From Ruminococcus flavefaciens AE3010 (lineage in GTDB: Bacteria > Bacillota > Clostridia > Oscillospirales > Ruminococcaceae), in assembly GCF_000526795.1 (NCBI RefSeq), contig NZ_JAGT01000001.1, positions 3,144,501 to 3,208,500 of the forward strand: 64,000 nt of DNA. Reading direction: 5' to 3'. This document shows positions 6,047 to 64,000 of the stretch, one piece after another. The position numbers were made by a program, and so were the translations under genes. Under the pieces are notes generated by a model. It made no database searches. It was given only the letters and a program-made list of their open reading frames with translations, and was not told the origin of the DNA. How positions within the stretch are numbered: position 1 is the stretch's first letter; each line of letters starts with the position of its first letter.

Positions 6047-6093
6047 ATTTTCTCCTTTTCATGGGAATGGGGCTGCTGTGCAGCCCCGAAGCT

Positions 6094-6870
6094 TTATCTT
6101 ATCTCATTGAGGAAATGCCTGTATTCCTCGAAGTTGTACTTGCCCTTTTCACGGGTGACTGTGCCGTACTCTATGGCGTTGGTGGGGCAGTTGCCTATGC
6201 ACGCCATGCAGTGTGAGCAGCTGTCTCCCCATGAGGGCTTATCCTCTCTGAGAGTGATGTTGCTGAGGGGACAGACCTCCTCACATTTTCCGCAGCCTAT
6301 GCACTTGTCAAGAACGGAAAAGTCCTTGGCGTTTATCTTGTGCTTGCAGAAGTAGGAGTTGATAGGAAGTGTTATGAGCTTCTCGACAAGGAGTACATGT
6401 CTTGTCTTGAGCTTTTCGCAGTTCTGTATGCTGTTGGATATCTCGTCGATCTTGTCAAAGGCTTTGAACAGACGATCCTTTATCTCGTCGTCTGTCTGTC
6501 CCTTGTAATGGCTGATATAGTAGTTATTGGGCATTACAGGCTCTGCGCAGCCCATGAACTCCATATCCTTTTTCTTGAAAAGCTTTTTTGCCTGCCATGC
6601 GGTTATGCCTGCATAGCCTGCGTTGTCGGCGATGAAGTATACAGCTCTGCTGCCTGTGAAGCTTGTGTTTTTCAGATAGTCGTATACGAACCGCGGCATT
6701 TCGCTCATATAAACAGGTGCACAGACGATGAACGGCTTGTCGGAGTGGAGCTCCGAATAGTCGTTTTTTCTTATCCTGCCAAGAAGGTCTATACACTGGT
6801 CGTCAAGTTTTTTTGCAAGCTCCGTGGCAATGAACTTTGTGTTGCCCGTAGCTGAATAGTAAAGGATCAT
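6094..6870 (-). CDS. EFR1-type flavodoxin/4Fe-4S ferredoxin fusion
   Basis: A 258-residue protein with an N-terminal flavodoxin-like domain (YYSATGNTKF at residue 4, an FMN phosphate loop). The C-terminal bacterial ferredoxin domain carries two 4Fe-4S motifs, CIGCGKCEEVCP and CSHCMACIGNCP. Proteins of this build are annotated as the EFR1 family. It follows the purine permease gene by 48 bp and precedes the flavin reductase gene, so the three may share a transcript. A role in intracellular electron transfer is inferred from the domains; no partner enzyme is evident. Confidence 0.85.
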   Translation of the reverse strand: MILYYSATGNTKFIATELAKKLDDQCIDLLGRIRKNDYSELHSDKPFIVCAPVYMSEMPRFVYDYLKNTSFTGSRAVYFIADNAGYAGITAWQAKKLFKKKDMEFMGCAEPVMPNNYYISHYKGQTDDEIKDRLFKAFDKIDEISNSIQNCEKLKTRHVLLVEKLITLPINSYFCKHKINAKDFSVLDKCIGCGKCEEVCPLSNITLREDKPSWGDSCSHCMACIGNCPTNAIEYGTVTREKGKYNFEEYRHFLNEIR

Positions 6871-6918
6871 AAAACTCCCCCTAAGATAGTATTTGCTTAT
6901 GGCGCATGGCGCCGAGGA

Positions 6919-8280
6919 TCACAGGAAAATATATTTGAGTACAAAGAGTACTGCGAGTACATACATGATAGGATTTATCTCCCTGCGCTTGCCGCAGATG
7001 AGATTTATCACCACGTAGGAGATAACGCCGATGGCGATACCCTCGGATATGCTGTAGAACAGCGGCATTGCTATGACGCAGAGGTAAGCGGGGATAGCCG
7101 AGGCGTAGTTTTTCTCGTCAACTTTTATCTCCGATACCGTGCAGAACATGAGGAAGCCTACCAGAATAAGGGCTGGGGCTGTTGCAAATGCGGGTATAGC
7201 AATGAATATAGGTGCAAGGAACATTGACAGCAGGAACAGTACAGCCGTAGTCAGGGCTGTGAGACCTGTTCTTCCGCCTGCTGCAACGCCTGCGGAGGAC
7301 TCAACAAAGGTGGTGGTGGTAGATGTACCGAGCACAGCGCCTGCGGTAGTAGCCACGGCATCTGCCATGAGGGCGGGACGTATTGCAGGAAGTTTGCCCT
7401 CTTTGTCGAGGAGCCCTGCCTTTGTGCTGACGCCTATGAGAGTGCCAAGTGTGTCGAAGAGGTCAACGAAGAGGAATGAGAATATAACAACGATGAAGTT
7501 GAATATTCCCACAGCGTCGAAGTCCACGCTGAAGCACTGTCCGAATGTGTCGCCCAGCTTTGTGAAGTCGGTCATGGTGAATGAGGGGATAAGTGAGAAT
7601 GCTTCAAGCTCAGGGGCGGGAGTATATATTCCCGTGACCTCGCAGATGATGCCCAGTATCCATGTGGCTATTATGCCTATGAGGATAGCGCCCTTTACTC
7701 TTTTGATGTAAAGCACGGACATGATGAGCAGTCCTATAAGTGCAAGGAGTGCGCATATGCCTGCGGTATGGAAATCCTCGCGGAAGTCCCTCAGCTGTAC
7801 AAGAGTTGCGGAGTCAACTGCAAGACCTGAGTTCTGGAGTCCGATGAATGCGATGAACAGACCGATACCCACGGATACCGCCCGTTTCAGCGAAAGGGGT
7901 ATGGCGTCGAATATGGCTTCTCTGACTTTGGTGAGAGACAGGACGATAAATATGATACCCTCGATGAACACCGCAAGGAGAGCCACCTGCCACGGATAGC
8001 CCAGATTACCGCAGACCGTGTACGCCATGTAGGCGTTGAGTCCCATGCCTGCCGAAAGAGCAAAGGGCAGATTTGCCATGAAAGCCATGCACACAGTTCC
8101 TATGAACGAAGCGATACATGTGGCAAGGAGCACCGCTGTGGGGTCCATGCCTGTCTTTGACAGGACGTTGGGGTTTACGGCGAGGATATACGCCATTGTC
8201 ATAAATGTGGTTATACCTGCGGCTATCTCAGTCTTGGTGTTGGTGCCGCGCTCTTTAAGTTTGAACAGCTTTTCAAGCAT
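6919..8280 (-). CDS. NCS2-family (AzgA-like) purine permease
   Basis: A polytopic membrane protein of about 453 residues with at least ten hydrophobic segments. It has NCS2/AzgA signatures: TEIAAGITTFMTMAYILAVNP near the N-terminus, then SAGMGLNAYMAYTV and GTSTTTTFVESSAGVAAGGRTGL. It would import purine bases by proton symport. The ATG at 8280 is preferred over the one at 8301 because GAGGCGGGG precedes it and the longer form overlaps hpt. It follows hpt by 10 bp. Together they form a purine salvage unit: import of the base, then conversion to the nucleotide. Confidence 0.9.
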   Translation of the reverse strand: MLEKLFKLKERGTNTKTEIAAGITTFMTMAYILAVNPNVLSKTGMDPTAVLLATCIASFIGTVCMAFMANLPFALSAGMGLNAYMAYTVCGNLGYPWQVALLAVFIEGIIFIVLSLTKVREAIFDAIPLSLKRAVSVGIGLFIAFIGLQNSGLAVDSATLVQLRDFREDFHTAGICALLALIGLLIMSVLYIKRVKGAILIGIIATWILGIICEVTGIYTPAPELEAFSLIPSFTMTDFTKLGDTFGQCFSVDFDAVGIFNFIVVIFSFLFVDLFDTLGTLIGVSTKAGLLDKEGKLPAIRPALMADAVATTAGAVLGTSTTTTFVESSAGVAAGGRTGLTALTTAVLFLLSMFLAPIFIAIPAFATAPALILVGFLMFCTVSEIKVDEKNYASAIPAYLCVIAMPLFYSISEGIAIGVISYVVINLICGKRREINPIMYVLAVLFVLKYIFL

Positions 8281-8290
8281 CTGCCCCGCC

Positions 8291-8839
8291 TCACTCTTCA
8301 AATTCCGCTATGTAAGGCAGATTGCGGTAGAACTCGCCGTAGTCCAGGCCATAGCCGATAACGAAGTAGTCGGGTATGGTGAACAGTGAGTAGTCCGCTT
8401 TAAGGTCTACCACGCGGCGGTCGGGCTTGTCGAGGAGGGTTATCACTCTCAGGGACAGGGGATTGCGGACGTTGAGTATCTTGATTATCTCATTGAGTGT
8501 GCGTCCAGTGTCGATGATGTCCTCGATTATGACTATGTGATACTTGCTGATGTCGTGCTTGAGGTCCATGGTTATCTCAACGTGACCTGTGGACACCGTA
8601 CCCTCGAAGTAGCTCTTTGCCGCCATGAATGCTATCTCACATGGGACCGTCACTTCACGGCATATATCAGCCATGAACACAAAGGAGCCTTTGAGTATGC
8701 TGACCAGCAGTATGGGAGAGCCGTCGTATATGGAGTTTATCATGGCTCCCGCTTTTTTTATTTCTTCGCGTATCTGCTCCTCTGAGATGATAACGCGCTT
8801 TATTTTGCTTTTCCACTGTTCTGTGCTGTCAAAATTCAT
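8291..8839 (-). CDS. hpt: Hypoxanthine phosphoribosyltransferase
   Basis: A 182-residue enzyme converting hypoxanthine or guanine plus PRPP to IMP or GMP. It shows SILKGSFVFMADICR and the PRPP loop IIEDIIDTGRTLNEI at about residue 100, plus FVIGYGLDYGEFYRNLPYI near the end, a hallmark of the family. The start is supported by GGAGGAG 7 nt upstream. It is the first gene of a minus-strand run with the purine permease. The length is normal for a bacterial Hpt. Confidence 0.93.
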   Translation of the reverse strand: MNFDSTEQWKSKIKRVIISEEQIREEIKKAGAMINSIYDGSPILLVSILKGSFVFMADICREVTVPCEIAFMAAKSYFEGTVSTGHVEITMDLKHDISKYHIVIIEDIIDTGRTLNEIIKILNVRNPLSLRVITLLDKPDRRVVDLKADYSLFTIPDYFVIGYGLDYGEFYRNLPYIAEFEE

Positions 8840-46989: not shown

Positions 46990-49686
46990 TTAAATGGGAT
47001 AATCGTCTATATCAATCTCTGTCATACCATGTTCTTTAGGATCAAAATCGTGGGGGAATAATGTGGTGAAGAACATTTGCGAGCAATATCTTGCATCTGT
47101 GAGATCAGCATCTTCCAAGTATTCAACTGTACTTAAATTAGTAGCAATTAAATCAGTTCCTGATAATGAAGCATAGAAAAAACAAGAACCTTCGAAAGAA
47201 GTGTAATACAGATTTGCGTTATGTAAATTTGCACCTCTAAAATCTGAATTAGCAATTGTAGCATAATTTAGTCGTGCGTCCATTAGATCTGCATTTATAA
47301 AATTAGAGTTTTTAATTGATGAATGGGAAAGATTAGTATGTAATAATTTAGCTCCTTCCAGATTAGTATTATCTAAATGCACGCTTCTCATGTTTGAACC
47401 AGTTAATTCCGCTTCAAATAAATTCGCAGAAGTAAATTTCCACTTGTGGAAATTTGCAGGATTATCTGCACTACTCAATAATTTTCCGACTTCCACACTT
47501 TCGAGTGCATTCTGATTGTTCGTAAAGCCGTGTCCTGTCAAGAACCAAGTTAAATTGGCATATGAGCGGCTAATTTGCACATTTAGTGAATTCAGCATCC
47601 ATGGATTGTCAAATCCCTTACAATTGGGATTATGGATTTGTGGAGGATATATGTATTCTTCAATAGCAGGTTCTATTCCGATTTTTGCAAACAAATGCTG
47701 CTTCATACCTTCAATATATCCCAGTATAAAACCTTCAGAATCAAAGCTTTGAGTAGTTTTTTCGGAAACTCCATTAAAAGTAGCATAGTCCATTGTATAT
47801 AGGAAACGGAAAACAGCCTCAGGGATTGCCTTATAGCGGAATGCTTCGATGGAGGCTTTTATAACCTCTGATGGTGCTTCCTTTTGATGATTTTCAAAAT
47901 AATCTTTGGTGAACTTTGCAAAATAATCTTCATAAAGCTTGACCGCCGTAAAATACTCATATACGGTCTTGTGTGCGAATGTTATGCCGCCTTTTTCATT
48001 TTCCTTTGCAAAGGGGCAAACGGCAAGTTCTCTTTTCAATTCAAGATTTGGTGTTTCGATTTTATATTCTTCTTTGAGAATATCCTTAGTACGTTTTTTT
48101 GCATTGCGAAAACCGATAGCTCGCCAGTCGTTTGAAATATTGTCATCAACAAGATCAAGTGTAGTAAGCAAAAACATCTGATACGCAAGCTCTTTGGCGA
48201 ACTGCCATGCTGTCAAATTTGCTTCTTTGTCTGCTTCTTTAAATTCGGATATATTAGATTGACCTCTTAAATGCTTTCTCAGAAGTATTTTAGTGAACGC
48301 ATCTCGATAGATTGAACCAATACTGTTATGATCTTCAATATCGGTTTCGCTTGTGCCGCAGATATACAGTATTATAGGTACGGCAAAAACTTCACGTCGT
48401 TCATCGTCATCTTCAAGTGAACTGAACTTTTTAAAAAAATTATCGCACCAATTCTCTTTATCCGGCTTCTTTGCTTTGTAAAGATCGAGCCAGTTTTTTA
48501 TCTGTTTTTCTTCCCAGACTAAACGCTCTGTTTTTAATCCTGCTTTATCATCCGGTTCTGTAAAATAACCTTCAGATTCACGCGATGTTACAAGCACATG
48601 AAAACCATATTCGAGTTTCGAGAGTTTTTCTATAAATTTTTTTCCCTCAAACCCACGCTTCAACACACAAAGCTCGTCAAGCCCGTCTAGGATGATAAGC
48701 TTGTCCTGTAGTTTCATAACGTCGTCACAGTTAAACAGCGTTTTTAGAATTTCTTCTGGTTTTAGTTGGTTATTTATCTTACCAGTGTGATTTCGCAGAG
48801 CAACAGCCATAACTTTGCTGCTATCGATATTAAATTCTACTTTGATTTTTTCGTTTCCTCCGTTAGCATCTGCAAGAATTTTAGATACAAAGCTGGATTT
48901 TCCCACACCTGCATTACCATATAACAGCATACAAGGTTTTGTCTTTGAATCTCTATACCATTTGATGATACAATCAGAAGCTTTTACATCATTATTTTTT
49001 ATGCTTGGCGAGATATACATATCAGCGAGCGATATGACATTCTTGTCTTTCTCTTCATCTTCAAGGAAAAGAGGATTTGAAAAAGCATCTAGGTAGGCTT
49101 GATTATCGTTATTGGGTGAATCACATTCAGGTTGTATAGTAGGAGAAGCTAATGAGGCAAATGACTCATTAAGTTCATTTTTCAAATCTTGTAATTCTTT
49201 TTTTATGCTGTCAGCATTTTGATTTGACACTTCTTTATACGCTTTTATTAATATGCCAACTTGAATTCTTTGCTCTTTTGATAAAAGGGACTCAATGTTG
49301 GTTTCAACTATACTAAAACATCTATCGATGATACGCCTTACACTTTCCTCTGATTCTTGCGTATTAGCATTCGTGTCGCGTATACATTCCTTGCGAATAA
49401 GCTCTTTTTTGTTTTCAAGACTATCATGTTCAAAATATGCGTATATATATGATTCGATGAAACTTTCATTGTCGAATTCTTTTAAAAGATCAATTAGCCC
49501 TTGGAAGTCATATTCGCCATTTTTACCTGTATTTTCAAAAACAGATAGTTCTTTTCTTATTAGTTCATCGATGTGTTCTTTTAGTATCCTTTTTTGAGAT
49601 AATTCGCGAACTTTAGAGATTACAGAATCAAATCCCTTTTCTGAACCGTAGCCACATAATATATCTATTATTATATCTATCTTCAT
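46990..49686 (-). CDS. NACHT-type STAND NTPase with pentapeptide repeats
   Basis: An 898-residue protein. An N-terminal helical region (about 1-225) is followed by a NACHT-like NTPase with Walker A LLYGNAGVGKSSFV (about 255) and Walker B LIILDGLDEL (about 327), then VLVTSRESEG as sensor. The C-terminal ~140 residues are pentapeptide repeats (ANLFEAELTGSNMRSV, NLEGAKLLHTNL and so on). STAND proteins of this kind act as phage sensors that trigger cell suicide or dormancy. The N-terminal effector domain has no motif I can name. A single gene with its own start; no partner nearby. Confidence 0.82.
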   Translation of the reverse strand: MKIDIIIDILCGYGSEKGFDSVISKVRELSQKRILKEHIDELIRKELSVFENTGKNGEYDFQGLIDLLKEFDNESFIESYIYAYFEHDSLENKKELIRKECIRDTNANTQESEESVRRIIDRCFSIVETNIESLLSKEQRIQVGILIKAYKEVSNQNADSIKKELQDLKNELNESFASLASPTIQPECDSPNNDNQAYLDAFSNPLFLEDEEKDKNVISLADMYISPSIKNNDVKASDCIIKWYRDSKTKPCMLLYGNAGVGKSSFVSKILADANGGNEKIKVEFNIDSSKVMAVALRNHTGKINNQLKPEEILKTLFNCDDVMKLQDKLIILDGLDELCVLKRGFEGKKFIEKLSKLEYGFHVLVTSRESEGYFTEPDDKAGLKTERLVWEEKQIKNWLDLYKAKKPDKENWCDNFFKKFSSLEDDDERREVFAVPIILYICGTSETDIEDHNSIGSIYRDAFTKILLRKHLRGQSNISEFKEADKEANLTAWQFAKELAYQMFLLTTLDLVDDNISNDWRAIGFRNAKKRTKDILKEEYKIETPNLELKRELAVCPFAKENEKGGITFAHKTVYEYFTAVKLYEDYFAKFTKDYFENHQKEAPSEVIKASIEAFRYKAIPEAVFRFLYTMDYATFNGVSEKTTQSFDSEGFILGYIEGMKQHLFAKIGIEPAIEEYIYPPQIHNPNCKGFDNPWMLNSLNVQISRSYANLTWFLTGHGFTNNQNALESVEVGKLLSSADNPANFHKWKFTSANLFEAELTGSNMRSVHLDNTNLEGAKLLHTNLSHSSIKNSNFINADLMDARLNYATIANSDFRGANLHNANLYYTSFEGSCFFYASLSGTDLIATNLSTVEYLEDADLTDARYCSQMFFTTLFPHDFDPKEHGMTEIDIDDYPI

Positions 49687-55074: not shown

Positions 55075-55102
55075 GTCCCGAAAAAATTTTCGGGATTTTT
55101 TA
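55075..55102 (+). terminator. Terminator before CRISPR unit A
   Basis: TCCCGAAAA/TTTTCGGGA with a T run. The same terminator type (CCCGAAAA.. then T7) precedes unit B (56292-56320) and the cas unit (57447-57475). Confidence 0.8.
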
Positions 55103-55109
55103 TTTATCA

Positions 55110-55138
55110 CTTAATTCTGTGTTTTCTCGTTCTATTAA
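55110..55138 (+). promoter_or_regulatory. Non-consensus promoter A (CTTAAT-17-TATTAA)
   Basis: CTTAAT, a 17-nt spacer and TATTAA directly after the terminator. The same pair, with the same spacing, occurs at 56329-56357 and 57482-57510. The -35 differs from the TTGACA seen in the other promoters of this window. Confidence 0.5.
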
Positions 55139-55153
55139 ATAACAGAAGGGGAT

Positions 55154-55185
55154 AGAGCTCACCCGAAAGGGAGGCAAAGAGCTCT
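55154..55185 (+). ncRNA. GNRA-capped leader hairpin, unit A
   Basis: AGAGCTC/GAGCTCT encloses CCC-GAAA-GGG, a GNRA tetraloop. A related element occurs at the same place in unit B (56373-56404). It lies just after promoter A and before the small gene. Confidence 0.45.
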
Positions 55186-55236
55186 GACTCTTACATTCGT
55201 GTGCAACTTCACGGCTATTAAAAAGGAGGAATTCAA

Positions 55237-55335
55237 ATGAAAACATCAATCATGGTCCCAAATCCCCAGCTGCCTGGCCCATCATCTCTTGTAGAAAAAA
55301 TCATCGAAATCATACTGCAAATTATTATAAAATAA
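55237..55335 (+). CDS. 32-residue peptide in CRISPR unit A
   Basis: MKTSIMVPNPQLPGP, then LVEKIIEIILQIIIK: an amphipathic helix at the C-terminus. AAAGGAGGA lies 7 nt before the ATG, the strongest site nearby. It takes the place that the 68-residue gene has in unit B but is not similar to it. Function unknown; a toxin-like membrane peptide is possible. Confidence 0.45.
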   Translation: MKTSIMVPNPQLPGPSSLVEKIIEIILQIIIK

Positions 55336-55354
55336 TCTTCTCAACACGATTTAC

Positions 55355-55410
55355 ATGGTCAGGAGCTCAAAAACGCAGGCAGGAGCTCCTGACCATAGCA
55401 ACCGCCTGCG
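55355..55410 (+). ncRNA. H-type pseudoknot RNA, unit A
   Basis: A perfect 14-bp stem (55355-55368/55383-55396) has a 14-nt loop whose CGCAGGC (55374-55380) pairs with GCCTGCG at 55404-55410. The same fold recurs in unit B with one compensated base pair. Confidence 0.6.
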
Positions 55411-55443
55411 AAAGATAAATTGGACAAATTATTAGCAAACCAC

Positions 55444-55472
55444 TTGACAATTTTGTGAATATATGCTATCAT
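55444..55472 (+). promoter_or_regulatory. CRISPR leader promoter, array 1
   Basis: TTGACA, 17 nt, TATCAT. The same promoter lies before array 2 at 57032-57060. Transcription would start just before the leader hairpin. Confidence 0.75.
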
Positions 55473-55474
55473 AA

Positions 55475-55534
55475 AGGTGCGAACCTATGAAAAGTGAGCT
55501 GCAAAATGGCATTAAAAAAAGGAGGTTCGCACCT
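55475..55534 (+). promoter_or_regulatory. CRISPR leader hairpin, array 1
   Basis: The 12-bp perfect arms AGGTGCGAACCT (55475-55486) and AGGTTCGCACCT (55523-55534) enclose 36 nt. The arms are identical in the second leader (57062-57073/57110-57121). Confidence 0.65.
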
Positions 55535-55564
55535 CAAAAGCGGCTGTTTATGAATAAGTTGTGA
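55487..55564 (+). CDS. 25-residue leader reading frame, array 1
   Basis: A frame beginning MKSELQNGIKK and ending LFMNKL lies inside the CRISPR leader. The array 2 leader has the same frame. Of six codons that differ, five differ only at a synonymous third position, and there is no indel. The ATG follows AAAGGTG by 8 nt, but the predicted transcript start is very close, so translation is uncertain. Confidence 0.35.
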   Translation: MKSELQNGIKKRRFAPQKRLFMNKL

Positions 55565-55649
55565 ACAAGACTGCGATTTTTGAGCTTGAATTTATTAATG
55601 CAACAGTAAGATAATGAACTGTTTTGCACAAAAGCAGTAATTTCTTGCA

Positions 55650-56252
55650 GTTGCAACTCACACCCCTCACGGGGACGGAAACTTCATCGGAAGCCATTAC
55701 TGTATCATTTATATTGGCTAGTTGCAACTCACACCCCTCACGGGGACGGAAACTTTTCCATTGTGATTTTCATAAACTTTTCCTTTCTACCCGTTGCAAC
55801 TCACACCCCTCACGGGGACGGAAACTTCGCTCTTCAGTTTTGGCAAGTTTTCTTGCTCCTGAAGTTGCAACTCACACCCCTCACGGGGACGGAAACACGG
55901 GTGGTAATACAACAGTTGCTATGACTCGTATAGTTGGTTGCAACTCACACCCCTCACGGGGACGGAAACATCAACGACGGGATTGAAGACGCTGCTCAGG
56001 TTGTCCCTGTTGCAACTCACACCCCTCACGGGGACGGAAACATTTTTATTGCTGCAAACTCGTCTAAAGACATTTCTTCGTTGCAACTCACACCCCTCAC
56101 GGGGACGGAAACAAGTCTCCAGTCTGTAAGAGCATCCTCTGTTGTGTAGTTGCAACTCACACCCCTCACGGGGACGGAAACCCCTTGAGTCCTACGTTCC
56201 ATTTCCAGATTTTCATAATGTTGCAACTCACACCCCTCACGGGGACTGAACA
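55650..56252 (+). CRISPR. CRISPR array 1 (9 repeats, 8 spacers)
   Basis: The 33-bp repeat begins GTTGCAACTCAC, has CCCCTCACGGGG in the middle (a short hairpin) and ends GACGGAAAC. Starts are at 55650, 55721, 55793, 55864, 55937, 56009, 56080, 56149 and 56220. Spacers are 36-40 nt. The last repeat is degenerate (ends GACTGAAC), which places the leader on the left. The spacers are all different. Transcribed with the leader at 55444. Confidence 0.97.
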
Positions 56253-56258
56253 AAACAA

Positions 56259-56320
56259 AAAGACTAAGCTTCGGCTTAGTCTTTTTTCTTTATCCCGAAA
56301 AATTTTTTCGGGATTTTTTT
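56259..56320 (+). terminator. Double terminator after array 1
   Basis: AAGACTAAGC-TTCG-GCTTAGTCTT with T6, then a CCCGAAAA/TTTTCGGG hairpin with T7. The first hairpin is repeated exactly after array 2. Confidence 0.88.
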
Positions 56321-56328
56321 ATTTATCA

Positions 56329-56357
56329 CTTAATTCTGTGTTTTTCCGTTCTATTAT
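56329..56357 (+). promoter_or_regulatory. Non-consensus promoter B (CTTAAT-17-TATTAT)
   Basis: Second of the three conserved promoters, at the head of CRISPR unit B. Confidence 0.5.
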
Positions 56358-56372
56358 ATAACAGAAGGGCAC

Positions 56373-56404
56373 GGAGCTCACCCGAAAGGATGCTTAAAAG
56401 CTCT
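56373..56404 (+). ncRNA. GNRA-capped leader hairpin, unit B
   Basis: GGAGCT/AGCTCT with one G-U pair encloses CC-CGAAAG-G type sequence, as in unit A. Confidence 0.4.
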
Positions 56405-56450
56405 CTGCCGCACACATACATCAACCTACAACCTTTAAGGAGGAAATGCC

Positions 56451-56657
56451 ATGAGCAAGTTAGTTTCAACCACCACCGAGAAGCCTGATTCATCCAAGTC
56501 CTCATCCAACGCTGTTATATTTGTCATCAAAGTCGTAATTTACATCTTAAACCTTATACTTTCAGGCAAATCAGAAACAGAAGCAATCAGGACAGCATCA
56601 GTAAAGCACAATATCCCCGTCAGCAAAGTCAAGGACATCTGGAAAAACCACAAGTAA
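56451..56657 (+). CDS. 68-residue membrane protein in CRISPR unit B
   Basis: A short charged N-terminus is followed by one membrane helix (NAVIFVIKVVIYILNLIL, about 20-37) and a cytoplasmic tail, SETEAIRTASVKHNIPVSKVKDIW, that looks like a helix-turn-helix. AAGGAGGA lies 6 nt before the start. A membrane-tethered DNA-binding protein would fit. No family recognised. It shares a transcript with the pseudoknot and the 96-residue gene. Confidence 0.55.
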   Translation: MSKLVSTTTEKPDSSKSSSNAVIFVIKVVIYILNLILSGKSETEAIRTASVKHNIPVSKVKDIWKNHK

Positions 56658-56674
56658 GATGACACACTCAGCAT

Positions 56675-56728
56675 GGACAGGAGCTCAAATAACGCAGGCA
56701 TGAGCTCCTGTCCGAAACTATCGCCTGC
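56675..56728 (+). ncRNA. H-type pseudoknot RNA, unit B
   Basis: A 12-bp stem (56675-56686/56702-56713) with loop GCAGGC (56694-56699) pairing with GCCTGC (56723-56728). Compared with unit A, one T-A pair is A-T (positions 56677/56711). It ends 3 nt before CGGAGG of the next gene, a riboswitch-like position. Confidence 0.6.
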
Positions 56729-56744
56729 AAACGGAGGTAAAAAC

Positions 56745-57035
56745 ATGAAAAAAAGCGTGATCTTCTGCTGTGACAGCAATACCAGGGGCATGATAGACTT
56801 CTATGTAAAAACAGGTAAGGAAAGCATATATCTCTTCAGTCAGAAATACCGCAAAAGCACATTCATGCACTATAAAGACGGATTGATACTTGACGAGGCA
56901 CTCAGCTACAAAAAGGCACATCGCGATCAGGCAATAATGAATGTAATAAAAAGACTTCCTGCCAATATAAGCTATATCGAAAAAGAATGCGGCATCTCTA
57001 TATTAAATCGAACAATTTCTCTGCAAACCGCTTGA
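56745..57035 (+). CDS. 96-residue protein in CRISPR unit B
   Basis: A small protein with no family I recognise: KKSVIFCCDSNTRGMIDFYV, then SIYLFSQKYRKSTFMHYKDG and DQAIMNVIKRLPANISYIEKE. The start at 56745 has CGGAGGT 7 nt upstream, directly after the pseudoknot. Its last codons overlap the -35 of the array 2 leader. Unit A has a deletion at the matching place: only the 3' trace (AATTGGACAAATT, then GCAAACC) remains, so the gene was lost there. Confidence 0.6.
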   Translation: MKKSVIFCCDSNTRGMIDFYVKTGKESIYLFSQKYRKSTFMHYKDGLILDEALSYKKAHRDQAIMNVIKRLPANISYIEKECGISILNRTISLQTA

Positions 57036-57060
57036 CATTTTTGTGAATATGTGATATCAT
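57032..57060 (+). promoter_or_regulatory. CRISPR leader promoter, array 2
   Basis: TTGACA, 17 nt, TATCAT, as in array 1; it overlaps the stop of the 96-residue gene. Confidence 0.75.
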
Positions 57061-57074
57061 AAAGGTGCGAACCT

Positions 57075-57152
57075 ATGAAAAGTGAGCTGCAAAACGGCAT
57101 TAAAAAAAGGAGGTTCGCACCTCAAAAACGACTGTTTATGAACAAACCGTGA
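57075..57152 (+). CDS. 25-residue leader reading frame, array 2
   Basis: The same frame as at 55487-55564, ending MNKP instead of MNKL. The other codon differences are AAT/AAC twice, AAG/AAA twice and CGG/CGA, all synonymous. It lies within the 12-bp leader hairpin. Confidence 0.35.
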   Translation: MKSELQNGIKKRRFAPQKRLFMNKP

Positions 57153-57236
57153 ACAAAACTGCGGTTTTTGAGCTTGAATTATTAATGCAACAGTAAGATA
57201 ATGAACTGCTTTGTACAAAAACAGTAATTTCTTGCA

Positions 57237-57406
57237 GTTGCAACTCACACCCCTAACGGGGACGGAAACCCGTGCGAATCTCCATCAAATATCGTTGGAA
57301 TGTATGATGTTGCAACTCACACCCCTAACGGGGACGGAAACATCTCGAAATACGGATTTGGTGCGATATTAAAATGTTGCAACTCCCCCCCTCATGGGGA
57401 CTGAAC
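57237..57406 (+). CRISPR. CRISPR array 2 (3 repeats, 2 spacers)
   Basis: Repeats at 57237, 57309 and 57376; spacers of 39 and 34 nt. The repeat differs from array 1 by one base (CCCCTAACGGGG instead of CCCCTCACGGGG) in both intact copies. The last repeat is degenerate and has CTCATGGGG. The leader and downstream terminator are near copies of those of array 1. Confidence 0.95.
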
Positions 57407-57414
57407 AAAACAAA

Positions 57415-57475
57415 AAGACTAAGCTTCGGCTTAGTCTTTTTTCTTTATCCCGAAAATTTTTGGGGATTTTTTTAT
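57415..57475 (+). terminator. Double terminator after array 2
   Basis: The same AAGACTAAGC-TTCG hairpin as after array 1, then a CCCGAAAA/TTTTGGGG hairpin with T7. Confidence 0.88.
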
Positions 57476-57481
57476 TTATCA

Positions 57482-57510
57482 CTTAATTTTACTCCTGACC
57501 AGTCTATTAT
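57482..57510 (+). promoter_or_regulatory. Non-consensus promoter C (CTTAAT-17-TATTAT)
   Basis: Third conserved promoter, directly after the array 2 terminator, facing the cas genes. The sequence between it and 57600 holds GAAAGGAGGA but no convincing gene. Confidence 0.5.
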
Positions 57511-57562
57511 ATAGTGAAAGGAGGAAGCACATAGGCAAATATAACAAAATATATGTATTATA

Positions 57563-57591: not shown

Positions 57592-57614
57592 AATAAATGA
57601 TCGGAGGGATAATT

Positions 57615-57965
57615 ATAAAAAAGATATTATGGGTATCACGCCATTCGATGACTTCTGAACAAAAAGCAGACCTTGAAAGGATATACGGCGCTGTTGAACT
57701 TATCCAGCATGACGAGACACTTAACGATATTACTCCGCTGCTTGAATATGACGTTGATGTTTATGCCGTAGTACTGCCCATTGATCTCATTGCCTTGCTC
57801 AAAAGAAATACGGCTGCCGATATAATCCAGCCTGTCTCAGGACGTGTAAAGACCGACAGACGTATCATCAACGGCGCAACAGGCAAATACGAAAACGAAT
57901 ATGTTTACAAGCATCTTTACTGGCAGCTTATAAAAAAATGCGAACTCGAAACAGAAAGGCTGTGA
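57615..57965 (+). CDS. Small type III CRISPR-associated protein
   Basis: About 116 residues beginning KKILWVSRHSMTSEQKADL, then VDVYAVVLPIDLIALL. It resembles small Rossmann-like proteins found beside type III CRISPR genes; a ring nuclease or Csx-type role is a guess. The start is odd. The in-frame ATG at 57597 has no ribosome-binding site and sits at the predicted transcript start. GGAGGG (57603-57608) points to the ATA codon at 57615, where the conserved-looking sequence begins. It is followed 4 bp later by the CARF-HEPN gene. Confidence 0.6.
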   Translation: MKKILWVSRHSMTSEQKADLERIYGAVELIQHDETLNDITPLLEYDVDVYAVVLPIDLIALLKRNTAADIIQPVSGRVKTDRRIINGATGKYENEYVYKHLYWQLIKKCELETERL

Positions 57966-57968
57966 ACT

Positions 57969-59651
57969 ATGAGAAATATTATTATTACAAACATAAGCGC
58001 ACTCCCTCAAAAAGAACCTCAAATCAATTCGTATACGTCTGACATAGGAGAATTTACAGGAAAATATACCAATGAAGCTCCGATAAAATACCTTATGTCA
58101 TACCTGAACAATAAGAGAGAAAAAGCTGATATCATCATAGCAGTCAGAACGGCGGAAGCTAATTCAGCATATACCCTTTTTGAAGAGGCAGTCAGGGCTT
58201 ATGCTGATGAAATATCCTCTTCCAGACCTGAAATGATCCCGATCGATACTTCCGAAACCGAACTTGAAAAAACTATTGATGCGATAATCAGCCATGTAAA
58301 TGAAAACGACAAGGTTCTGATAGATACGACGGGAGGTTTCAGAAACTCAAGCTATCTTCTCATGGCAGTTGTAAGATTCCTTGAATATGCAGGTATCGGA
58401 CTTACAAAAGCAATCTATGCCAAATTTCATGATGAAAGAAAAATCATCGACATAACCGATACTTACAGAATGTTCGATCTTATCAATGCAGTAAACACCT
58501 TCTCAATAATGGGTAATTCCCGTGAACTTGAAAGTTACTTCGCCAATCAGGATAACGAAGTGGTTAAACAGACTATAGCTGCAATGAACAGCTTTTCCGA
58601 TGAGATCTCTCTTTGCCGCACTTCTAAACTTGATACTGTTCTGAAAACACTTAATGATCGGTTAAATGAGCTTTCAGAACTCCATACCGATTCCAAAGAT
58701 GTGATACTGCTGAAAAGTCTTTCGGAGAAAATAAGGAATAAATTCGGCTGTAATAATAAGATTGAGTATCCAGACGTTGTGAAATGGTGTCTTGATAACC
58801 GCCTGATACAACAAGCTGTTACAATTTATGTTGAAAAGATGCCGGAATATCTATTTAGCACGAAAGTGCTGTCATATGATCCTAAAAATATTAACACGGG
58901 CTCTTTTCAAAAGAATTTTGATATATACTACAATTTACTTTATAACGGATTATTGAGACTTACAAGCAGTATAACTTTTTCGCAATACCCTGTTGGAAAT
59001 CTGCTTTTAAGATTGAAAAGGGATAATTCTACTGTTTATCGTGAAATATGCACTGTAAATAACATAAACGACCTGAGTATAAAGAATCAGCTGACTCAGG
59101 ACGAACGAAGAGGAATCTTAAACCTGATCCGTGTTAAGAATGCTATATTCTCAGAACCAAATGTCAGGCGAACAGTGGATGATATTGAGAGTAAAAAGCA
59201 GAATACCAAGCTGCGGGATTTTGCGGACACTGATATCTTTGAGATTATGGCTACCACCACTGAAGCATTTGTCAATGTACTGCTAAAAGAGAAAGAGTAT
59301 ATACGCTTGTTACAAGGAGAATTCACGCCTTATGCCCCAAGAGTATGGACTGCCGCAGATATAAACGTGGTTGAACATCTGGAACGTGTTTTGAGCGAGA
59401 ACAAGGATATGTATTCATTTAGCTCTGAAATCGACTACAATTACATTAAAGAGTTACTAAGGCATCTTATTTATGTCAAGCGATACGTCAGGAATGCTTT
59501 AAACCATGCAAGCGAGGAAAGACACGTAACAGATGAATATGATGAATACTTCAGAGGGATGGGATATAATGTCTCTGCTGAACTATCTGTCACGGAAATA
59601 GAGCCTTTTTTACGAAAAGCCGTAGACCTTATAATAAAAATCACATATTAA
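57969..59651 (+). CDS. CARF-HEPN ribonuclease (Csx1/Csm6-like)
   Basis: A 560-residue effector of type III CRISPR. The N-terminal CARF domain (about 1-180) has the ligand loop VLIDTTGGFRNSSYLLM (about 116-132). The C-terminal HEPN domain has RYVRNALNHASEE (about 505), with R-x4-H as the RNase active site. On binding cyclic oligoadenylate made by Cas10 it would cut RNA non-specifically. A long helical linker joins the two. The ATG lies 4 bp after the previous stop. Family level is solid; the subgroup (TM1812/Csx2-like) is inferred. Confidence 0.85.
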   Translation: MRNIIITNISALPQKEPQINSYTSDIGEFTGKYTNEAPIKYLMSYLNNKREKADIIIAVRTAEANSAYTLFEEAVRAYADEISSSRPEMIPIDTSETELEKTIDAIISHVNENDKVLIDTTGGFRNSSYLLMAVVRFLEYAGIGLTKAIYAKFHDERKIIDITDTYRMFDLINAVNTFSIMGNSRELESYFANQDNEVVKQTIAAMNSFSDEISLCRTSKLDTVLKTLNDRLNELSELHTDSKDVILLKSLSEKIRNKFGCNNKIEYPDVVKWCLDNRLIQQAVTIYVEKMPEYLFSTKVLSYDPKNINTGSFQKNFDIYYNLLYNGLLRLTSSITFSQYPVGNLLLRLKRDNSTVYREICTVNNINDLSIKNQLTQDERRGILNLIRVKNAIFSEPNVRRTVDDIESKKQNTKLRDFADTDIFEIMATTTEAFVNVLLKEKEYIRLLQGEFTPYAPRVWTAADINVVEHLERVLSENKDMYSFSSEIDYNYIKELLRHLIYVKRYVRNALNHASEERHVTDEYDEYFRGMGYNVSAELSVTEIEPFLRKAVDLIIKITY

Positions 59652-59664
59652 AAGGAGAATTTGT

Positions 59665-60279
59665 ATGAAAAAATTTATTTGTGTTACACCTTTCCAGAAT
59701 CCCGATTATCTAAAATCTGTGATCTATACTCCGGCTAACAATCCCAGTCTCGGATATGACAAGGAAACAAGATTTCCCATTATTCCAACCATAAACGCCT
59801 ATACTGAGAATGGCGAGGAGATAGAGTTAATCAATATTTTCTGCAATCACGAAAATGCTAAAATAAATTATGTTCCCATGAAAAAAGAAATAGATTGTAT
59901 TTCTGAAGAGAAAAATCTGAAAATAGTTGAGCGGACTATAGACGTACCGTTTAACAGCAGTCTTGAAATCCAGTTCAAAATCTTTTCCGAGCTTATATCT
60001 TTTACAAATGATAACGATATGCTTTTCTGTGATATAACCTACGGAACAAAAGTTATGAATCAGGTGCTTACTATGGCCATCAATTATGGTTACACTATCC
60101 ACAATGATGTCACAATAGGCTGCATGGTTTACGGAGAATACGATTTCGTTAAGAAAATTCCAATAATTTACGATATAACTTCCCTGATCTATCTCAATGA
60201 GATCGTAAAAATACTGGCTGATAACAAGGTCAGCGATCCGGAAAAGAAAATAAAAGCCTTTCTTAATTGGGAGGATTAG
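59665..60279 (+). CDS. Stand-alone CARF-like protein (TM1812 type)
   Basis: A 204-residue protein with only a CARF-like fold. MLFCDITYGTKVMNQVLTMA (about 118-137) matches the D-I-T-x-G loop of TM1812-type CRISPR proteins, and VYGEYDFVKKIPIIYDIT follows. No HEPN or nuclease domain is attached. It could be a ring nuclease that destroys cyclic oligoadenylate or a ligand-responsive regulator. It ends 2 bp before the sigma-like gene, so the two are made together. Confidence 0.7.
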   Translation: MKKFICVTPFQNPDYLKSVIYTPANNPSLGYDKETRFPIIPTINAYTENGEEIELINIFCNHENAKINYVPMKKEIDCISEEKNLKIVERTIDVPFNSSLEIQFKIFSELISFTNDNDMLFCDITYGTKVMNQVLTMAINYGYTIHNDVTIGCMVYGEYDFVKKIPIIYDITSLIYLNEIVKILADNKVSDPEKKIKAFLNWED

Positions 60280-60281
60280 TT

Positions 60282-61250
60282 ATGATTAATGATGAAAAGA
60301 ACAGGAATTTATCAGAAGATGAGATAAACGAAATTGCAAGGAAATACTCTGAAGCAAAAAAAGTCGGTGATAAGAATCTCGAAAAAAACTATATGGTTCA
60401 GCTGTACAATTTTCTGTATGCGCCCACAGTATTGCACAAAAAACTTTGCAAACAGCTGAATGCGTCCCAAGATAAACTAAACCATGGTGATGACGAACTT
60501 TCAGATTTCTTTATGGAGTATGTCCTGAAATATGATTTTGAAAAGAATAAAGACTTCGTAGCATATTGCTGCACCTACATGGATTTCTATTTGAAGAATA
60601 AATTCAAAAAGCAATACAAAAAAATAAACGCCAAAGCCTCTCAAGAGAAAAAAACTTATAATTCAGAAGAAGTCACAAATGAAGGAAACGAAAAAAAATG
60701 GAAGAAAAGAGAAGAATTTGGAGATGATATAAAAGGCTTTGATACAGATAATTACGAAGATACTGATGACTCTTATGCCAATTTTGAGATTATGTACATT
60801 GTCCGTACTCGGTTGCCGTCTGTTATCATAAATTTCTATAAGCACAATATAGGTAAAGCCGCAAATGAAAAAAGATTAAGTTATTACAGAATCTTTTTTA
60901 CCGAGGATATTATAACGCTTATATCAGAATCAGGACATACGAAGTATTTTAACAAGAGTGAGACCTATGAATGCTCCGACAAAAACTACGTCAAATTCAT
61001 ATCTTATTCTAAATATGATAAATTGGAGGATATACTCTCATTAAGATACAAAAAGTATTCAGACGTTTTCGAGAACTATTCCGGTAATGATAAAGAACTG
61101 AAAGTTCCGTGCGAAGAAAAAGTCATAAGTGAATACAGATTTCGCAGCGGACTTGATAAAAAGAAAAAGCCAGTATCAAAGGAAGCTGTCTCACAGCAAA
61201 AAGGTTTTTATAAAAAGCAGTTGAGTTGGATAATGAGTGATATCAAGTAA
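60282..61250 (+). CDS. Sigma-70-region-2-like protein in the type III operon
   Basis: A 323-residue protein. Residues about 73-115 (DDELSDFFMEYVLKYDFEK, then FVAYCCTYMDFYLKNKFKK) follow the pattern of sigma-70 region 2. A charged linker follows, and the end, KKKPVSKEAVSQQKGFYKK, looks like the recognition helix of region 4. The middle (about 170-270) is an insertion of unknown fold. It is not a known Cas protein. The start at 60282 has GGGAGGA upstream, 2 bp after the CARF-like gene. A CARF-controlled transcription factor is the inference; weak similarity is all that can be claimed. Confidence 0.5.
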   Translation: MINDEKNRNLSEDEINEIARKYSEAKKVGDKNLEKNYMVQLYNFLYAPTVLHKKLCKQLNASQDKLNHGDDELSDFFMEYVLKYDFEKNKDFVAYCCTYMDFYLKNKFKKQYKKINAKASQEKKTYNSEEVTNEGNEKKWKKREEFGDDIKGFDTDNYEDTDDSYANFEIMYIVRTRLPSVIINFYKHNIGKAANEKRLSYYRIFFTEDIITLISESGHTKYFNKSETYECSDKNYVKFISYSKYDKLEDILSLRYKKYSDVFENYSGNDKELKVPCEEKVISEYRFRSGLDKKKKPVSKEAVSQQKGFYKKQLSWIMSDIK

Positions 61251-61290
61251 AGTAATGACTTAATATAATATGTCAAAGAGGTGAACATAC

Positions 61291-62772
61291 ATGAGTGAAG
61301 TCTTAGCACTATATGACTGCCGCAGCAAGCAGGAATATATCTATCGCACGAACAAAGTTAAGGAAATAGCAGGAGCTTCTGCTCTGCTTACTGATCTGTT
61401 CAAGAGCTTTTTCAGGTCAACGGAGCACGGATTCAAATTTAACTACGATTGGGAGAATATGATCGCGCCCGACGATTATTTTGAGTATTTCCGAAACTCC
61501 GGATGCGACGGCGAGATAGTATACGAGGGCGGGGGCAATCTCTGCGTTATTTTCCGAGACGAAAAAAAACATCAAGATGTGAACAAAGCTTTGTCGCTTC
61601 ACGTTCTTAAATCTACCTATTCTGTCGGTCTTGTCGCATCTGCCGTTAAAATTGAAAAAATAGACGATAAATACAGTTTTGTTAAAGACAGGGAAAACTT
61701 GTATATTGAAAACTCTATCAAAAAAAATCTTGGCTCTTATTACTCAGCTTGCAATGTACTACCGTTCACTCTTACAGACCGTCTGACACATCAGCCTATC
61801 ATTTGTAAAAAAGGTGAAAATCAGTATACTGCCGAAAGTAAACTTAAAATGAAAAAATATGAAGAGCTTTATGATACTAGCAAAAAAGCGATTGAAACCG
61901 AAGCTGTGATCGAGACCGAATTTGATAAAATGGTTGATAAAGGTAATGAAAGCCTTCTTGCCATTATCTATATCGACGGCAACAGTATGGGCGAAAAGCT
62001 CAAGAATATGACTCGTGGCGCCGATTCTTATGCCTCAGGTATTAACGCGCTCAGAGAATTCTCAAAGAAGACCAACGAGGATTTCGTTATATCGCCGATA
62101 AACGCTATCCAAAACAAGCTCTATTCAAAATATAAAGAGAATATAGAAAGCCCTATTAGGAACAGATTTCTATATCGTCCCATTATCAGTGGCGGAGATG
62201 AGATAACGCTCGTTTGCAACGCAAGAGCTGTTCCACTCATTCTTGAAACATATTTTGATACGCTGAAACAGAGCGGCGAAAATACCGCCTGTGCGGGAGT
62301 AGCTATTTTCCATAGCCACGCTCCTTTTTCTGATGTTTATGAGATAGCAGAGCAATGCTGTGAAAGCGGAAAGAGAAAAGCCCATAAGGAACAATCGCAA
62401 AACAAGAACTTTATTGATTTTCACTATTGCCATTCTGGAATTATCAATTCTCTCGATGCTATTCGTGAACGTCAGGAAGCCGCTTATACAAATCGTCCAT
62501 ATGAGTACTCGACTTCGTGGAAAGAGTTCCAACAGCTTGGAATTCGTATTGCAGAAGAAGAAATGAAGCTTGATCGTTCCAATCTTAAGGAGCTTAGTCG
62601 TGCAATGACAGAAGGTAATTCATACTATCAGGAAGAACTCAAACGTATCGCTTCTCGTCAGAAATCAGAGGAGTTCAAAAAGACTATTATCAACGGCGGA
62701 AGTGAAATTATGAAAATGCTTTATGATATTTCTATTGTATACGATCTTTGGTTTATGAAGGAAGGTGAATGA
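61291..62772 (+). CDS. cas10: Cas10 (HD-less, GGDE Palm)
   Basis: A 493-residue Cas10-type subunit. It begins with the first Palm-like domain (LALYDCRSKQEYIYRTNKV; EGGGNLCVIF at about 80) and has no N-terminal HD nuclease. The second Palm has IYIDGNSMGEKLK (about 226) and ISGGDEITLVC (about 299), with GGDE in place of the usual GGDD. It would make cyclic oligoadenylate on target RNA binding; the CARF proteins in the operon support this. No DNA cleavage by an HD domain is expected. The length fits compact III-D or Cmr2-like forms. AGAGGTG precedes the start. Confidence 0.85.
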   Translation: MSEVLALYDCRSKQEYIYRTNKVKEIAGASALLTDLFKSFFRSTEHGFKFNYDWENMIAPDDYFEYFRNSGCDGEIVYEGGGNLCVIFRDEKKHQDVNKALSLHVLKSTYSVGLVASAVKIEKIDDKYSFVKDRENLYIENSIKKNLGSYYSACNVLPFTLTDRLTHQPIICKKGENQYTAESKLKMKKYEELYDTSKKAIETEAVIETEFDKMVDKGNESLLAIIYIDGNSMGEKLKNMTRGADSYASGINALREFSKKTNEDFVISPINAIQNKLYSKYKENIESPIRNRFLYRPIISGGDEITLVCNARAVPLILETYFDTLKQSGENTACAGVAIFHSHAPFSDVYEIAEQCCESGKRKAHKEQSQNKNFIDFHYCHSGIINSLDAIRERQEAAYTNRPYEYSTSWKEFQQLGIRIAEEEMKLDRSNLKELSRAMTEGNSYYQEELKRIASRQKSEEFKKTIINGGSEIMKMLYDISIVYDLWFMKEGE

Positions 62773-62773
62773 A

Positions 62774-64000
62774 TTGGGCAAAATCTTTATCACCTTGAAA
62801 TCAGATCTTTGTTCAGCAAGCGGCGACGGTTTTTCTTCAATTATAGATACAGATGTATGCTATGATAAGTATGGTTTCCCATATATAGGAGGCAGAAGGC
62901 TGAAGGGCTGCCTGCGAGCTGCTGCCGAACTTATTGGTTCTCCTTATATAGATGAGATATTCGGTAAAAGTGGCTCCTCTAACCGCGGTTCTTTGTTTAT
63001 ATCAGATGCAAGATTGCCTGACATTGAGGAACTACATGCTGAAGCAAAGTGCCTTGATTCAGAAAATGTTCTTGGGCTTTTCACTTATATACGCGCATCA
63101 ACAGCGATTGAAAATGATACCGCAAAATACAATTCTCTTCGTTTTACAAGAGTTATCAAGCATTATTCTCCTTTCGACGGCAACGAACTTGTATTCTGTG
63201 CTAATGTAGAGATTAACAAGGATTATGAGCCAGAGTTTTCTGATATTTGCAAGGCACTAAGAAATATCGGATATAAACGTAACCGAGGATATGGTGCGGT
63301 TAAATGCGAATATGTTCATGGAACTGGGAAAGCTGCAACAGCTTTTGAAAGCGTATCCAAAGATGAATTGGAGATAAGATATACGCTTCGTCTCGATTCA
63401 AATCTGATGATCCCTGGACAGACCTCTGATGAGACCTCAGATCATATTCTGGGAACAGCAATGCTTGGTTTCCTCGCCGGAGAGTATCTGAAATTGTATC
63501 CGGCTGACAGTGAATTTGAGGAGATATTCCTTAAAAATAATGTTCGTTTTTCTAATCTCATTATCTCAGACCGCGCTGGTACTGAATACTTTCCTGTTCC
63601 GACTATTGTCGGCAAAATTAAAGGTGAGAGCGGTTATTTCAATATTCTCGAATCAGGGAATGAAGAGGAACGAATCATAAAACCTCTCAAAAAAGGATAT
63701 TGCAGCACTGATCTGAGCGTTGTTTCTCCGCTTACAGAAACGATTTATCATCACAGTACAGGCAAAGAAGGTACGCTTTATACGCAGACATGCCTTTGTT
63801 CAGATCAATATTTCCGAGGTTCGATAAGCGGAAAAGCTGAATTCATTCATAAACTATATCCTTTGCTGGTTTCCGGCAGTATTCATATCGGAAGAAGCAA
63901 GTCCGCTCAGTATTCATCATGCTCGCTCCATGATATAAGCCTGAATGAGGCAAAGCGCAATGAGTTTGTGATCAATCCCGACAAAACGTTTATTGTTATC
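62774..64000 (+). CDS. RAMP protein, Csx10-like (partial, runs off the window)
   Basis: An open frame of 409 residues with no stop before the edge. It starts at a TTG with GAAGGTGA 5 nt upstream, 1 bp after the cas10 stop. The first RAMP domain has LKSDLCSASGDGFSS and YDKYGFPYIGGRRLKGCLR. A second has HILGTAMLGFLAGEYL and VRFSNLIISD. Two RAMP domains in one chain next to an HD-less Cas10 suggest Csx10 and a III-D-like system. It would be part of the crRNA-binding backbone. Confidence 0.65.
   Translation, partial: MGKIFITLKSDLCSASGDGFSSIIDTDVCYDKYGFPYIGGRRLKGCLRAAAELIGSPYIDEIFGKSGSSNRGSLFISDARLPDIEELHAEAKCLDSENVLGLFTYIRASTAIENDTAKYNSLRFTRVIKHYSPFDGNELVFCANVEINKDYEPEFSDICKALRNIGYKRNRGYGAVKCEYVHGTGKAATAFESVSKDELEIRYTLRLDSNLMIPGQTSDETSDHILGTAMLGFLAGEYLKLYPADSEFEEIFLKNNVRFSNLIISDRAGTEYFPVPTIVGKIKGESGYFNILESGNEEERIIKPLKKGYCSTDLSVVSPLTETIYHHSTGKEGTLYTQTCLCSDQYFRGSISGKAEFIHKLYPLLVSGSIHIGRSKSAQYSSCSLHDISLNEAKRNEFVINPDKTFIVI

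Follow-up and report, generated by a model that had tools for sequence, protein, structure and literature searches.

What does a CARF gene without an effector domain do directly ahead of a sigma-factor-like gene in a type III CRISPR operon of Ruminococcus flavefaciens AE3010? The preliminary description of the window, by which we mean the whole stretch of 64,000 nucleotides analyzed here, saw in these two genes a possible transcriptional branch of type III immunity. Type III CRISPR is mostly viewed as a toxin trigger; if the CARF protein directly gates a sigma factor, type III would also run a programme of gene expression whose regulon could be identified, and the pair would provide a small, protease-free and ligand-inducible transcription tool.

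The gene pair in its type III-D operon

Genes 57597-64000 of the window and their continuation in the genome (locus L011) are assigned by sequence to a type III-D CRISPR-Cas operon, with Cas10d, Cas5/Cas7 of type III-D, Cas6 and a CRISPR array all present (PADLOC, repeat search). The type III operon announced in the preliminary description is thus recovered through Cas10d, the RAMP/Cas5-III-D protein, a CARF-HEPN protein, a weak Csx20-like match and CRISPR repeats. The CRISPR arrays sit directly upstream of the operon, and the features are arranged as follows.

55643..56255, + strand, CRISPR array 1: 9 copies of the repeat GTTGCAACTCACACCCCTCACGGGGACGGAAAC, the last one degenerate at its end, spacing 69-73 (repeat search)
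57230..57344, + strand, CRISPR array 2: 2 full repeats, then a degenerate copy at 57388 (repeat search D1, D6)
57597..57965, + strand, Csx20-like small protein, candidate cA4 ring nuclease (PADLOC Csx20, E 0.001, weak)
57969..59651, + strand, CARF-HEPN ribonuclease of the Csx1/Csm6 type (PADLOC Csx1/Csm6, E 2.7e-43; HEPN motif RNALNH, residues 508-513)
59665..60279, + strand, stand-alone CARF protein, putative sensor half of the pair (PADLOC CARF2--CARF, E 2.3e-84)
60282..61250, + strand, sigma-70-related protein of 322 aa, putative output half of the pair (profile tests, recurrence)
60300..60617, + strand, sigma-2-like N-terminal domain of the latter, residues 7-112 (fold match, modest)
60777..61247, + strand, C-terminal domain peculiar to this family, residues 166-322 (Y-R-I-F-F-T-E-D motif, HTH-like segment at the end; AlphaFold pLDDT 91)
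61291..62772, + strand, Cas10 of type III-D (PADLOC Cas10d, E 2.5e-88; GGDE at residue 301; Pfam, palm domain only)
62765..64000, + strand, RAMP protein Cas7/Cas5 III-D (PADLOC Cas5_IIId, E 3.6e-81; 640 aa, leaving the window and ending at 6188 of L011)

The RAMP genes are separate and of the Cas5/Cas7 type (PADLOC, Pfam), the Cas6 gene lies on the opposite strand in the continuation, and no HD domain is found among the domain matches of the window Cas10 (Pfam, PADLOC). As the preliminary description had it, no protease is visible: the scanned operon genes of the window and L011 gave no match to a protease or SAVED family (Pfam, NCBIfam, PADLOC).

At 55081-57513, both arrays are surrounded by leader-like and terminator-like segments that occur in duplicate (D3-D6), and a small ORF (56673-57035) lies between the arrays. 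Just past the cas operon, L011 11628-14596 encodes two GTPases (IIGP/AIG1/MMR_HSR1 matches) and, after them, a radical SAM protein, which are possibly further defence genes. On the minus strand at 46990-49686 of the window, near transposase-like genes, a NACHT-type NTPase with pentapeptide repeats (NACHT below its cut-off) looks like a defence protein.

The CARF ORF (59665-60279) starts with ATG and encodes 204 aa, of which residues 1-202 are covered by PADLOC model PDLC01821, so that a CARF-like protein with no effector domain, as first described, is indeed what is found, and one that falls by its profile into an already catalogued class (CARF2--CARF). Membership of the CARF superfamily follows from the profile match across the whole protein and from the conserved motif D-I-T-Y-G-T-K, which we take to be the ligand-pocket motif. 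In an alignment of 23 CARFs, residues G127, K129, Y156 and D170 are invariant, G127 and K129 being kept in 23/23. Two bp separate the CARF stop from the ATG at 60282, as had been noted, and a GGGAGG ribosome-binding-like stretch lies within the end of the CARF gene ahead of that ATG. The second ORF ends with its stop at 61250.

Recurrence and co-inheritance of the two genes

Sequence searches with the 322-aa protein recovered few relatives, 4 others at E 0.001 and 8 aligned proteins when the query is counted, and a contig scan with this protein alone gave 94 pattern matches and 0 relatives. The CARF protein was therefore taken as bait and the neighbouring gene inspected. Genus-search rows in G015, G002, G098 and G042 (39-43% over 40-49 residues; L005-L010) were dropped as chance matches lying in ORFs of 637-685 aa, presumably NAD-synthase-like, and two short matches in G023 of the same identity and length were likewise left out of the relatives.

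Stand-alone CARF loci were found in the genus sample (6 in 125 genomes), the family sample (20 more in 396), the order sample (6 more in 394) and the class sample (2 more in 391). The 34 loci of this genome search and 38 of 49 from a contig search, the other 11 being the same contigs, make 72. CARF matches in open frames of at least 396 aa, the size of CARF-HEPN proteins, were excluded before counting (G002:C33, G053:C21, G427, G193, G303, G298, the window CARF-HEPN and class-level rows of 411-670 aa), and G1023:C27, a partial CARF match in a 229 aa frame (E 4e-4), was left out of the count. The titles of the 38 contigs include Ruminococcus, Oscillospiraceae, Lachnospiraceae, Faecalibacterium and Flavonifractor, as well as Coriobacteriaceae, Atopobiaceae, Treponema, Synergistales and Endomicrobium; most of the contigs come from metagenome-assembled genomes, so single taxonomic placements may be wrong. 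Viral contigs searched with the CARF protein yielded 53 pattern matches and 0 relatives.

Among the 72 loci inspected, 70 have downstream sequence (L061 and L201 end before any downstream gene), and in 68/70 the CARF gene is followed by a sigma-like gene on the same strand. Sixty-six of these genes are full length and 2 are cut by the contig end (L027 and L183, judged by eye). The later searches used the CARF bait alone and thus did not select for pairing; the first CARF set, however, came from paired loci. Recurrence of the pair in other genomes, which the preliminary description had proposed to look for, is therefore borne out. The two genes are tightly packed, with a median intergenic distance of 0 bp (range -106 to +19) in 31 genome-search pairs, the longest ORF being used except for the window.

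The 2/70 exceptions (L067 and L068) belong to one genus and have a membrane protein after CARF instead of a sigma-like gene. There (L067 3401-4589, L068 9413-10616), CARF is followed by a membrane protein of ~195 aa and then by a multi-pass membrane protein, which we take to be intramembrane-protease-like; the membrane proteins are possibly a different output for the same CARF sensor.

Furthermore, the distance matrices of the CARF and sigma-like proteins are correlated (r 0.76, n=66; 0/2000 permutations reach r). At the 20 loci with Cas10, the correlation is 0.75 for CARF-sigma, 0.45 for CARF-Cas10 and 0.44 for sigma-Cas10, and the partial CARF-sigma correlation given Cas10 is 0.68. Between Cas10 lineages the pair moves as a single unit. 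Neighbouring genes are co-inherited with or without contact between their products, so this co-variation could be explained by physical linkage alone and is no proof of CARF-sigma binding. The genes for the CARF and the sigma-70-related protein form a unit that is co-inherited and widely recurrent.

Relation of the second protein to sigma-70 factors

Taken alone, the 322-aa protein gave no match at E 1 in NCBIfam and PADLOC, none up to E 10 among PDB sequences, and nothing above noise in Pfam (DUF6335, 0.17) and PHROGs (0.29). Sigma identity is not callable from the window protein alone, while the family is callable, and profile comparison places the protein in a diverse family homologous to sigma-70 factors. 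The profile test was run on 66 family proteins, namely the full-length neighbours picked by their position next to CARF and not by similarity, on 797 decoy ORFs (>=200 aa, from the same loci) and on 22 sigma factors of the same genome. This genome (G000) is rich in sigma factors, with 51 Sigma70_r4 matches at E 0.001, 44 of them over the cut-off and mostly ECF-sized; from these 51 matches 30 loci were fetched, of which those with a plausible sigma ORF were retained and 8 left out.

At E 1e-3, the profile built from the five proteins of the window's own clade found 33/66 family members, 2/22 sigma factors and 0/797 decoys. Both sigma factors are ECF-sized (L095, E 4e-5; L106, 8e-4), the best decoy standing at 0.44. 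When the profile was iterated by feeding back family members alone and never sigma factors, it took in 64/66 relatives and 6 sigma factors, with the primary one, L077, among them (1.7e-7), and still 0 decoys. The number of members that joined was 64 with seeds Q1 and Q5 and 66 with seed Q4, L070 and L197 being the hardest, and the best decoy across all rounds reached E 0.0013 (seed Q4, round 5). The matches of the clade profile span region 2, at window residues ~73-115, plus part of what comes after, and the resemblance of these residues to the sigma-70 region 2 pattern, first seen by eye in the letters, is upheld by the alignment to the sigma factors of the own genome. Homology to region 2, the part that binds core RNA polymerase and recognises the -10 element, is thus supported by this profile (E 4e-5, 0/797 decoys at 1e-3), with modest support from the fold.

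Profile-profile comparison (hhalign) links the window clade to the family clades Q5 (98.4%), Q2 (97.8%), Q1b (94.4%) and Q3 (89.4%, C-terminal part). Against four own-genome factors of SigA/SigF size, Q3 reached 91.0% over 140 columns and Q4 94.2% over 180, with 8 Cas proteins as controls at <=1.5%. The window clade itself scored low against ECF sigma factors (29.7%), the SigA-size set (1.2%) and clade Q4 (0.8%), and Q1b, Q2 and Q5 gave <=30.7% against either sigma set.

The 66 members were also searched against NCBIfam and Pfam. At E 0.01, 28 NCBIfam models were matched, sigma factors accounting for 22 among the 25 listed, the commonest in 8/66 members. SigI models matched L139 (1.4e-5) and L138 (4.1e-5) below cut-off, and TIGR02937 (sigma70-ECF) matched L076 at 2.8e-7, below the model's own cut-off. 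In Pfam at E 0.1, few members matched a sigma region: Sigma70_r3 was matched by 7 members, r2 by 3 (L138 at 0.0032) and r4 by 1, besides HTH_Crp_2 (5) and HTH_23 (4). The best NCBIfam matches of the family include SigI-type and SigB/F/G-type sigma-70 factors (SigI in L139 and L138, SigBFG in others); the family differs from them in that no member was seen over a curated NCBIfam cut-off where cut-offs were compared, and in its extra or replaced C-terminal domain and CARF neighbour.

Structure prediction of 60282-61250, which the preliminary description had recommended, divides the protein into two halves. The N-terminal domain is modestly sigma-2-like by fold in the predicted model, whereas the C-terminal domain (residues 166-322), although confidently modelled, gave in fold searches no convincing solved fold and no sigma-4, which leaves promoter recognition unsupported for this half. 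For the suggestion that the end of the protein looks like region 4, the HTH for -35 recognition, the evidence is mixed. The last ~45 residues contain an HTH-like segment (VS..AVSQQ...YKK) conserved in the family, and the relative L076, the 1/66 members with this match at E 0.1, lies over the Pfam Sigma70_r4 cut-off (25.0 versus 24.1 bits); as the C-terminal domain matches no solved fold, region 4 is nevertheless unproven for the window protein.

Possible modes of action, with and without Cas10

The conserved pair beside a type III system suggests a direct switch in gene expression upon infection. A Cas10 with GGDE and a co-encoded CARF-HEPN protein indicate cOA signalling; GGDE is listed among the Cas10 motif variants in loci with effectors, and type III-D is said to act primarily via cOA signalling, in the parts of Hoikkala et al. 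(PMC11229360) that concern them. Csx20 is described as a cA4-specific ring nuclease (PMC12830947, section on this enzyme).

We lean, by a small measure, towards a two-protein, ligand-gated CARF-sigma switch that works without a protease. The type III-D complex would recognise foreign RNA and Cas10 would then make cyclic oligoadenylate, most likely cA4 because of the Csx20-like gene in the operon, itself a weak assignment. The CARF protein would bind this ligand as a dimer, like other CARFs, and the ligand would alter its grip on the sigma-like protein with no protease involved. Given that no protease family was matched by the scanned operon genes, the simplest view makes CARF itself the inhibitor that responds to the ligand: ligand-free CARF would most likely hold sigma from RNA polymerase, and the ligand would free sigma to steer the polymerase to a small defence regulon. 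CARF would most likely dock on the family-specific C-terminal domain, which may also read the -35.

Several known systems resemble this arrangement. The type III CalpL-CalpT-CalpS system (SAVED-Lon protease, anti-sigma, sigma) likewise passes a cOA signal on to a sigma factor and so evokes a transcriptional response, as described in the relevant sections of PMC11229360 and PMC12751052, but here the sensor is a CARF protein, the scanned operon genes include no SAVED-Lon protease gene, no separate anti-sigma gene is recognised, and a C-terminal domain of its own distinguishes the sigma-like protein. In type III-E, an RNA-triggered CRISPR complex with Csx29 and Csx30 frees the ECF-like CASP-sigma from its inhibitor by RNA-activated proteolysis (PMC10028731, as summarised there), and Cas10 is given as absent (PMC12669027, in its overview); in contrast, a nucleotide messenger and CARF are implied here, and instead of gRAMP/Cas7-11 and TPR-CHAT Csx29 without Cas10, Cas10d is present and the RAMP genes are separate. 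Csa3 of Saccharolobus, a CARF fused to a winged HTH with cA4 as ligand, also controls transcription through a CARF sensor (PMC8844856, in its account of this factor); it is a one-protein DNA-binding factor, whereas the window CARF is the CARF domain alone and the output is a second, sigma-related protein. Finally, RtcR, in which a CARF is fused to an AAA ATPase for sigma-54, provides CARF input to a sigma-dependent transcription step as presented in PMC4012209; it is a sigma-54-dependent activator, and the window output is a sigma-70 relative.

The sign of the control could be the opposite, with ligand-bound CARF acting as a co-activator whose binding would enable the sigma-like protein to engage RNA polymerase or promoter DNA. 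Pairing and co-variation are compatible with either sign, a C-terminal domain that is not a normal sigma-4 would need outside help at the promoter, and Csa3, which stays a dimer with its ligand, is discussed as needing a partner (PMC8844856, in that discussion). We nonetheless regard co-activation as unlikely, since CalpS and CASP-sigma, the two known type III sigma branches, both work by relief of inhibition through proteolysis of CalpT and Csx30, respectively, in the sections concerned of PMC11229360, PMC12751052 and PMC10028731.

Rather less probable still is that the sigma-like protein is itself the effector, freed by CARF to occupy core RNA polymerase via its sigma-2 domain and to stop host and phage transcription. 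Such a blocker would fit a window protein in which the sigma-2 part alone is recognisable, the rest being family-specific, and type III effectors are most often growth-arresting nucleases (PMC12669027, in its survey of effectors). A blocker has no need, however, of the regions 2 and 3 and the terminal HTH that some relatives keep, as L076 with its Sigma70_r4 match, nor of the alignment of clade Q4 to own-genome sigma factors over 180 columns.

The switch favoured above calls for a ligand, and the settings of the 72 loci bear on its source. A type III core gene (Cas10 or RAMP) lies in the fetched stretch at 29 loci and Csm6/Cas6/Csx-type genes alone at 10; at 8, at least two of vWA, PP2C and Ser/Thr kinase genes are present, and 25 have neither, some of them on short contigs. 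The Cas10 palm profile PF22335 was matched in 19 of 28 CARF genomes at E 0.001 (16 over cut-off) and in 50 of a family sample of 197 (25 over cut-off), which contains several of the 28; these 28 exclude the window's own genome and include G375 and G126, where the pair is unchecked. Doubtful cases were decided with the Cas10d profile, which found Cas10 in 4/16 genomes. Several PF22335 rows, whose matches begin only at about position 50, were read as GGDEF cyclases, as was the match in G200, over the cut-off yet confined to positions 53-132 in a 346-aa frame. By these two profiles, convincing Cas10 is absent in ten paired genomes of 83-99% completeness (G200, G289, G404, G395, G438, G154, G342, G565, G756 and G805), so Cas10-made cOA cannot be the ligand everywhere. 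A CBASS-type SMODS cyclase, considered as an alternative source, occurs in 2/11 genomes and is thus no general answer.

Stand-alone CARF ring nucleases such as Crn1 exist, so the CARF protein could also be an enzyme. That it degrades cOA, or regulates independently, while the sigma-like protein acts separately, e.g., on the cas operon promoter, is improbable: pairs persist in the genomes that lack a convincing Cas10 and would thus hold no Cas10-made cOA to degrade, CARF distances track the sigma-like protein (0.75) more than Cas10 (0.45), and the operon already has a weakly assigned Csx20-like gene for a cA4 ring nuclease (PMC12830947, as characterised there).

The proposed transcriptional branch of type III immunity is therefore supported in part, by the recurring pair, the sigma-70-related family and the sigma-2-like fold, and qualified by the unproven region 4 and the ten paired genomes. 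Nearly as likely as its opposite, in our estimation, is that the pair forms a portable sigma switch, gated by nucleotides and working without a protease, that predates type III CRISPR or reaches beyond it; this switch would serve Cas10 in III-D and, in Cas10-free genomes, another nucleotide signal, often beside vWA/PP2C/Ser-Thr-kinase genes. Should this hold, CRISPR-type second messengers would have a third route to the control of a sigma factor, and a so far unrecognised synthase of CARF ligands would be implied; the Cas10-free pairs raise the question of what besides Cas10 makes ligands for CARF domains. The open full-text papers searched in PMC gave no earlier description of a CARF paired with a sigma-70-like protein, and an earlier mention, for instance in a subscription paper or a preprint, is possible.

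Genes for vWA, PP2C and Ser/Thr kinase-like proteins lie within ~10 kb of the pair at L069, L072-L075, L141, L143 and L188, a set that we take to resemble the TerY-P triads of the tellurite and stress-response literature. Pfam confirms vWA, PP2C and kinase at L141, PP2C and kinase at L143, vWA and PP2C at L069, and vWA at L074. Pfam gives no match for the large kinase-like proteins at L069 and L074, which are linked by similarity alone. A Sel1-repeat protein is also found near the pair at L069 and L072-L075. At L070, the gene after the pair (6010-8433) codes for a Sel1-repeat protein with an N-terminal match to sigma-70 region 1.1 (PF03979, E 7.4e-7), by which it is another sigma-related piece adjoining a CARF-sigma pair.
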